From positions 1 through 39,029 of the forward strand of contig JAGLYV010000090.1 of NCBI GenBank assembly GCA_023131975.1: a DNA stretch of 39,029 bases, given 5' to 3'. This document shows positions 4,742-5,412 of this stretch, in pieces (position 1 is the first letter of the stretch; the number at the start of each line of letters is the position of its first letter). This DNA comes from Candidatus Krumholzibacteriia bacterium (GTDB taxonomy: Bacteria; Krumholzibacteriota; Krumholzibacteriia; Krumholzibacteriales; Krumholzibacteriaceae). The notes below the pieces were generated by a model. It made no database searches. It had not been told where the DNA came from and worked only from the letters and a program-made list of their open reading frames with translations. The translations under genes and the position numbers were made by a program.

Positions 4742-4908
4742 TTTCACACACCGGCCGTTCAGCATTCTTGACATTATATATCCATACACGTATATATGGT
4801 TAACGTATCGGGGAGCAGGGTGCCGGGAGAGGTCTGCGGACAGGGAACAGATCGATAGGCAAAGATATGGCGACTGACAGAAAGTCGCTGCGCGAAATGG
4901 AGTGAACG

Positions 4909-5076
4909 ATGAATGACGCACTGGGAATCATTATCTTTCTTGTCGTCTGGATAGTCGTAATGAAATTTATCCTGCCGAAGGCCGGAGTCCCTACCTGAAT
5001 GGGCGGGGCATGCGACGTCGGGGACCGGCGTAAAGACGAAAACAAGAAAAAAAGTAACGACGAGACTGTCGATTGA
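4909..5076 (+). CDS. Candidate small membrane selenoprotein (in-frame UGA at 4996-4998)
   Basis: The ATG at 4909 has a good GGAG site seven bases upstream. Twenty-nine codons encode one membrane helix (GIIIFLVVWIVVMKF) followed by ILPKAGVPT. A TGA at 4996-4998 then interrupts the frame, which stays open for 25 more codons to a TGA at 5074-5076. The extension begins MGGACDV and becomes a charged Lys/Asp-rich tail. Read through as selenocysteine, the product is 55 residues with a U-x4-C pair just after the helix on the presumed cytoplasmic side, a plausible redox pair. A hairpin in the right place for a bacterial SECIS follows the UGA. The alternative is a 29-residue peptide ending at the first TGA. 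I have a weak recollection of similar short proteins with Cys at this site, not checked here. The FmdB-like gene follows 61 bases later. Confidence 0.6.
5015..5031 (+). promoter_or_regulatory. Candidate bacterial SECIS hairpin
   Basis: ACGUCGG and CCGGCGU form a seven-pair stem with one G-U pair, closing a GGA loop at 5022-5024. The loop begins 23 bases after the UGA at 4996-4998. Bacterial SECIS elements bound by SelB lie just downstream of the UGA and have a short apical loop with a G in its first positions, so geometry and loop fit. A stem in G+C-rich coding DNA can arise by chance, so this is support rather than proof. Confidence 0.5.
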
Positions 5077-5137
5077 ACGTCGACTGTCTTCTGGTTACAT
5101 CGACGATCAATAGATGGCAGTGATAACGGAGAGATCG

Positions 5138-5326
5138 ATGCCGATATTCGAATTCATATGTTCTAAATGCGAAGAACAATTCGAGGAACTGGTATCCTCG
5201 GCTGACAGCAAGGTGAAGTGTCCTTTCTGCGGCAGTGCCAGGACAGAGAAACAGTTCTCGGCCTTTTCCAGCAGTTCCTCTTCGGGAAGCCATGGAGGAG
5301 GGTGCGCCCCATCGGGCGGTGGGTGA
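5138..5326 (+). CDS. FmdB-family zinc ribbon protein
   Basis: A 62-residue protein starting at the ATG at 5138, preceded by GGAGAG. An upstream in-frame ATG at 5114 has no comparable ribosome site. It begins MPIFEFICSKC and has two CxxC pairs at residues 8/11 and 28/31, the zinc ribbon of the FmdB/CxxC_CxxC_SSSS family. The tail is a Ser-rich stretch ending in GGGCAPSGGG, also typical of the family. Function is poorly known; members are small putative regulatory or metal-binding proteins. It follows the candidate selenoprotein on the same strand and is closed by the terminator at 5381. Confidence 0.88.
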   Translation: MPIFEFICSKCEEQFEELVSSADSKVKCPFCGSARTEKQFSAFSSSSSSGSHGGGCAPSGGG

Positions 5327-5380
5327 AGCCCCTTCTGACAGAACGGCGGTCTGCCGTTTTCAAAACAATGACAAAAAAAT

Positions 5381-5412
5381 GCCCGGAAGAGAATATCTTC
5401 CGGGCTTTCTTT
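5381..5412. terminator. Strong bidirectional intrinsic terminator
   Basis: A perfect ten-pair stem GCCCGGAAGA / TCTTCCGGGC with a five-base loop. On the plus strand it is followed by TTTCTTT; on the minus strand by ATTTTTTTG. It ends the FmdB-like gene on one side and the gltX-tRNA-Gln-tRNA-Glu unit on the other. A smaller stem ACGGC/GCCGT followed by TTTT lies just before it at 5343-5360. Confidence 0.88.

Follow-up and report, generated by a model that had tools for sequence, protein, structure and literature searches.

The gene at positions 4909 to 5076 of the window (the whole stretch of 39,029 nucleotides that was analysed; all features described here lie on the + strand) encodes, almost certainly, a protein in which an in-frame UGA is decoded as selenocysteine (Sec), and the family to which this small membrane protein belongs is nearly Sec-only. 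The comparative data that carry the assignment of Sec to the small protein carry it nearly as strongly for the FmdB-type protein encoded downstream, whose apparent stop is very probably a C-terminal Sec codon, a feature that the earlier note on this DNA had overlooked. We consider it likely that the region 4909-5338 forms a two-selenoprotein unit, in which the small protein would act in redox chemistry at the membrane with the FmdB tail as a possible partner. The broadest reading is that of a widespread, nearly Sec-only family doing, on the cytoplasmic side of the membrane, a job impossible with cysteine (Cys), in a two-selenoprotein redox relay with a C-terminal-Sec FmdB, and systematically missed by present gene finders and selenoprotein filters; for this reading as a whole we judge the chances evenly balanced.

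The small gene, its in-frame UGA and its hairpin

The frame opens with an ATG at 4909 and runs through 29 codons, which include one hydrophobic helix, to the TGA at 4996-4998; 25 more codons then lead to the true stop, a TGA at 5074-5076. Read through the first TGA, the frame translates to MNDALGIIIFLVVWIVVMKFILPKAGVPT-U-MGGACDVGDRRKDENKKKSNDETVD-stop, a single-span protein of 55 residues with the motif LPKAGVPT-U-x4-C and Sec as residue 30. The membrane helix, the in-frame TGA and the 25 further codons are as the earlier note had described them, and its claim of a small membrane selenoprotein is now supported by homologs, by the presence of the decoding machinery and by covariation in the hairpin. 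The elements TTGACA and TATATA, 17 nt apart at 4768-4796, may serve as the promoter; they are kept in L019, a genome of the same genus, and are missing from the output of an automatic promoter scan, which requires T at the last -10 position. An Rfam search of the window returned tRNAs only.

The assignment of the UGA draws on homolog codon counts and on co-occurrence with selA. Homologs of the small protein were found in 70 of 193 related genomes, and all 72 matches contain an in-frame TGA. The 64 relatives that were read share the consensus F-x-LP(K/R)-x-G-(V/I)-x-T-U-x4-C, in place of which one family of the window's class has LPRFGIKPG-U-GPxxC. The frame beyond the UGA is strongly conserved in all homologs read, and the U-x4-C motif is present in 141 of 178 homologs; in the Nitrospirota members Cys tends to lie near the C-terminus (KKC), not at U-x4-C. 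Substitutions by codon position show a clear third-position excess upstream of the UGA; downstream, where the DNA is under the additional constraint of the hairpin, the excess is weak.

Codon usage at the Sec position was counted in two partly overlapping samples, neither of which favours Sec. A DNA pattern that covers the region before the codon and ends in TGH, thereby admitting TGA, TGC and TGT equally, was scanned against the genome contig collection; among the matches listed, at least 117, there are 116 with TGA, one with TGC and none with TGT. Likewise, of the 84 matches with E 1.1e-6 or better that a profile search produced in 388 genomes, 81 have TGA and one each has Cys, Arg and TAA. 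The share of Sec is above 96% in both samples, for the pattern scan among the matches listed. Homologs ending in TAA or TAG at this codon, which the earlier note had named as evidence against its own reading, are represented by one TAA (L212) against these counts of TGA. Its expectation that Cys would replace the UGA in homologs was not borne out: such replacement is almost never seen, and among the matches listed in the two samples Cys occupies the position only in L146 and L210, each of which is one continuous frame. The pattern matches listed include members from Desulfobacterota, Geobacter relatives, Nitrospirota, Acidobacteria, Planctomycetes, KSB1, Zixibacteria, Spirochaetes, Verrucomicrobia, Gemmatimonadota, Eisenbacteria, Armatimonadota and Myxococcales, with Geobacter-type bacteria and Thermodesulfatator as cultured hosts. 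Among about 113 genomes from beyond the window's class, one per distinct family, 12 carry a member, or roughly one tenth of the bacterial families sampled there.

Both the L146 and the L210 genome have selA, so it was not loss of the machinery that imposed the switch to Cys. selA is also present in the genomes of L212 (G269 C54:21471-21593), with TAA at the Sec position, and of L211 (G441 C168:3078-3197), with Arg at that position and a decayed tail; in both, Sec loss under way or an assembly error is a possible explanation.

The earlier note had also described a hairpin of seven pairs with a GGA loop. It is present at 5015-5031, inside the coding sequence of the small gene (ACGTCGG-GGA-CCGGCGT, loop at 5022-5024), and we take it as a real SECIS hairpin because of its covariation and not its folding energy, which is ordinary (z -0.47); the energy of a single hairpin, not being unusual alone, was discarded as evidence. 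In its register 94.5% of cells are paired across 26 sequences and 7 of 7 pairs have changed on both sides; the covariation score is 0.671 against 0.232 for shuffled alignments (0 of 500), and controls in which the register was slid are at most 36% paired. Given that the stem is kept through compensating changes in L057, L070 and L079, where the GDR peptide is replaced, that peptide does not account for the pairing. Of 178 family sites, 83% have a SECIS-like hairpin; the share is 20% for 694 ordinary TGA stops and 14% for shuffled sequences. One family (A4) uses a second register, and its sequences barely vary, so that the pair count there is uninformative.

All four genes whose presence the earlier note had proposed to check are found in the host genome (2.79 Mb, 96% complete): selA (433.6 bits), selB (343 bits), selD (396 bits) and selC, the tRNA-Sec gene (68.2 bits, above its cut-off). 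The host SelA, SelB, SelC and SelD would decode the UGA at 4996 as Sec by way of the hairpin at 5015-5031. Two samples of genomes were compared for selA. In the first, all 36 genomes with the Sec form carry it, as do 30 of 44 in which no member of the small-protein family was detected; the corresponding figures for the second are 40 of 41 and 16 of 36. When pooled, these become 76 of 77 Sec-form genomes versus 46 of 80 others (Fisher p 4e-11), a test that counts related genomes as independent and so gives too small a p-value, as do the other Fisher tests, with the direction the same in both samples. Beyond the window's class the figures are 52 of 53 versus 25 of 58. Among the named family-bearing genomes, 32 of 37 have selA and three of the remaining five have selB; two family-bearing draft genomes have neither selA nor SelB above cut-off.

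Topology, gene neighbours and proposed chemistry

The C-terminal flank of the helix is the more positive one in 83% of cases and the N-terminal flank in 2%, from which the positive-inside rule predicts that the small protein lies N-out, C-in. With the C-terminus in the cytoplasm, both Sec and the Cys that follows five residues on would therefore lie on the cytoplasmic side, at the membrane surface. Along with this topology we infer that the small protein goes through a redox cycle and that it is paired with FmdB. The selenol would react with a thiol substrate at the membrane surface that is oxidised, persulfidated or bound to a metal, and Sec would form a selenenylsulfide with the nearby Cys, a bond that the U-x4-C spacing would allow. 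Re-reduction of the small protein would then fall to a cytosolic thiol system, which could be thioredoxin or FmdB with its flexible, Gly/Ser-rich Cys...Sec tail.

The genes that neighbour family members elsewhere encode, out of 150 proteins, nine thioredoxins, six AhpC-TSA proteins, six FmdB proteins, five ArsR-type regulators and four rhodaneses. The thioredoxin-superfamily, ArsR and rhodanese neighbours together favour thiol, persulfide or peroxide redox chemistry at the membrane, and we put the chances of a redox role for the small protein at about even. The earlier note had suggested redox or metal chemistry for the Sec-Cys pair; the redox half now appears favoured, since thioredoxin-superfamily genes are the commonest neighbours and are a better fit to redox cycling, and the metal half is kept as a rival. 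According to the latter, Sec and Cys are a soft-metal or metalloid ligand, and the membrane protein and FmdB pass on, sense or protect a metal (or selenide or persulfide) at the membrane. The zinc ribbon of FmdB speaks for this, as do the five ArsR-type regulators and the RND efflux, rhodanese and DUF302 genes beside some members; however, in addition to the prevalence of thioredoxin-superfamily neighbours, the fact that Cys forms are almost absent would point more to catalysis than to simple ligation, and we hold a purely ligating role to be unlikely.

Neighbours differ by lineage, including ECF sigma and anti-sigma genes, rpoA-rplQ and RND efflux genes, and this variability singles out no one pathway. 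In the Desulfobacterales-type loci L099, L106 and L191 (likely also L132, L144 and L158) an ECF sigma factor gene directly follows the small gene, and in several Desulfobacterales-type loci a small zinc-finger anti-sigma-like gene comes after the sigma gene. In the Nitrospirota loci L088, L090, L147, L155 and L170 the small gene adjoins rpoA-rplQ. In the planctomycete L118 it precedes hybrid-cluster protein-like and desulfoferrodoxin-like genes, a redox-stress context.

The FmdB gene and the remaining readings of the two UGA codons

The second gene of the window's unit, at 5138-5338 when its extension beyond the TGA to the second stop is included (MPIFEF...GGGCAPSGGG-U-SPF-stop), encodes a zinc-ribbon protein with two CxxC motifs that matches TIGR02605 with 57 bits and PF09723 with 51 bits, above the curated cut-off. 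Its candidate Sec codon, a UGA at 5324-5326 in a C-x6-U tail, would be decoded a few residues before the true C-terminus by way of a SECIS-like hairpin with the loop GGTCT, at 5340-5360 directly 3' of the second stop. The typical end in this group is CGSGGFT-U-G-stop.

A competing account has FmdB end normally at its TGA, with the hairpin as a mere transcription terminator. T runs do follow several hairpins (L058, L069 and L082), which could double as terminators, but the window has a separate intrinsic terminator-like stem at the end of the two-gene unit, at 5381-5405, and because of this we do not take the hairpin at 5340-5360 for the terminator. Moreover, TGA is the apparent stop of every one of the 72 FmdB genes in the loci examined, and in 71 of them a second in-frame stop comes within five codons, as opposed to 14% of 540 long TGA-ending genes. 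A SECIS-like hairpin follows the TGA at 96% of the 72 sites with fairly fixed spacing, the loop mostly beginning 19-27 nt past the first base of the TGA. The hairpin covaries in two alignments, of 21 and 42 sequences (0.369 versus 0.130 and 0.567 versus 0.237; 0 of 500 shuffles each). Among FmdB genes fetched as controls from genomes of known selA state, a TGA with a near second stop is found in 11 of 39 from genomes with selA and in none of 35 from genomes without it (p 5e-4); none of these 35 genes ends in the Cys form, FTC-x-stop. An ordinary end of FmdB at its TGA is thus highly improbable.

The gene immediately downstream of the small one is fmdB in 42 of 64 relatives; the spacing is almost always between -14 and +61 nt. 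This arrangement would also suit a small gene that is mainly a selenium-sensing leader, in which Sec decoding controls the translation or transcription of fmdB. Yet among the matches listed FmdB is within 2.5 kb in only 14 of 117 named loci, and the transmembrane segment, the motif and U-x4-C, which a leader would not need, are conserved also where FmdB is not nearby, so that very little weight can be given to a leader function. FmdB genes with the C-terminal Sec codon (FmdB-U) also occur where the small gene is not their immediate upstream neighbour, so that the two are paired often but not of necessity.

Hardly any credence remains for the proposal that the UGA of the small gene is an ordinary stop, which would leave a membrane peptide of 29 residues followed by a separate frame of 25 codons from the adjoining ATG (TGAATG). 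An ATG does follow the UGA at 88 of 180 TGA sites, but 89 of the 180 have no start codon there, the frame, the Cys spacing and the hairpin are conserved across the UGA, the two Cys forms are uninterrupted, and the Sec form co-occurs with selA. A separate downstream open reading frame, ordinary readthrough and a different genetic code were rejected; 16 of the 27 coding sequences in the window end in TGA.

Comparison with catalogued selenoproteins

The small protein and ten diverse relatives have no match above the curated cut-off in Pfam-A and NCBIfam release 20, and the best hit of the small protein in a profile search of the PDB is no better than E 0.5. Compared by motifs and by NCBIfam/Pfam profile models, not by individual representative sequences, it matches none of the 119 prokaryotic selenoprotein families of the 2026 catalogue (PMC13188914, Table 1). 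The small-protein family and the C-terminal-Sec FmdB group are both absent from current catalogues, as compared in open-access papers. Because a standard gene caller would end the small protein at 29 residues and FmdB at its Sec codon, these two missing groups suggest that bacterial selenoproteomes are undercounted.

The small gene is like other selenoprotein genes with SelB and SECIS, such as the formate dehydrogenase gene fdhF of E. coli: its UGA has a short stem with a G-containing loop within the usual distance downstream, and its host likewise has selA, selB, selC and selD. It departs from the catalogued SelB-decoded selenoproteins in having almost no Cys homologs. According to the authors of deep-Sep (2025), Cys homologs now seem to exist for every known selenoprotein, and a candidate that has none may be discarded by their pipeline (PMC12013277). 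The family described here, with nearly all members carrying Sec, runs opposite to that statement, and a protein of only 55 residues makes the question of why selenium and not sulphur is used a testable one. The closest precedent for a Sec-only family is glycine reductase selenoprotein A (GrdA), a soluble protein of the Clostridia type, whereas the small-protein family is membrane-bound and spread across many phyla. GrdA was long believed to be without Cys homologs (PMC12013277).

The small protein resembles the eukaryotic selenoproteins S and K (SelS and SelK) in architecture only. Both of these eukaryotic proteins are small, cross the membrane once and carry Sec in a tail on the cytosolic side, and we know of no sequence relationship between them and the bacterial protein. 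Sec adjoins the membrane in the bacterial family, whereas it is the penultimate residue in SelS. For SelS, a selenenylsulfide between Sec188 and Cys174 has been proposed (PMC3628699).

Selenoprotein FmdB has been catalogued from GOS data with CxxU or UxxU motifs (PMC2398784, PMC13188914). The FmdB of the window, a member of the same FmdB family, differs in that its Sec would be part of a short tail that extends the C-terminus past the apparent stop. This tail is like that of mammalian thioredoxin reductase, which is flexible and carries Cys and Sec just before the C-terminus; the two are not homologous, and the likeness offers an analogy for how FmdB-U might act.
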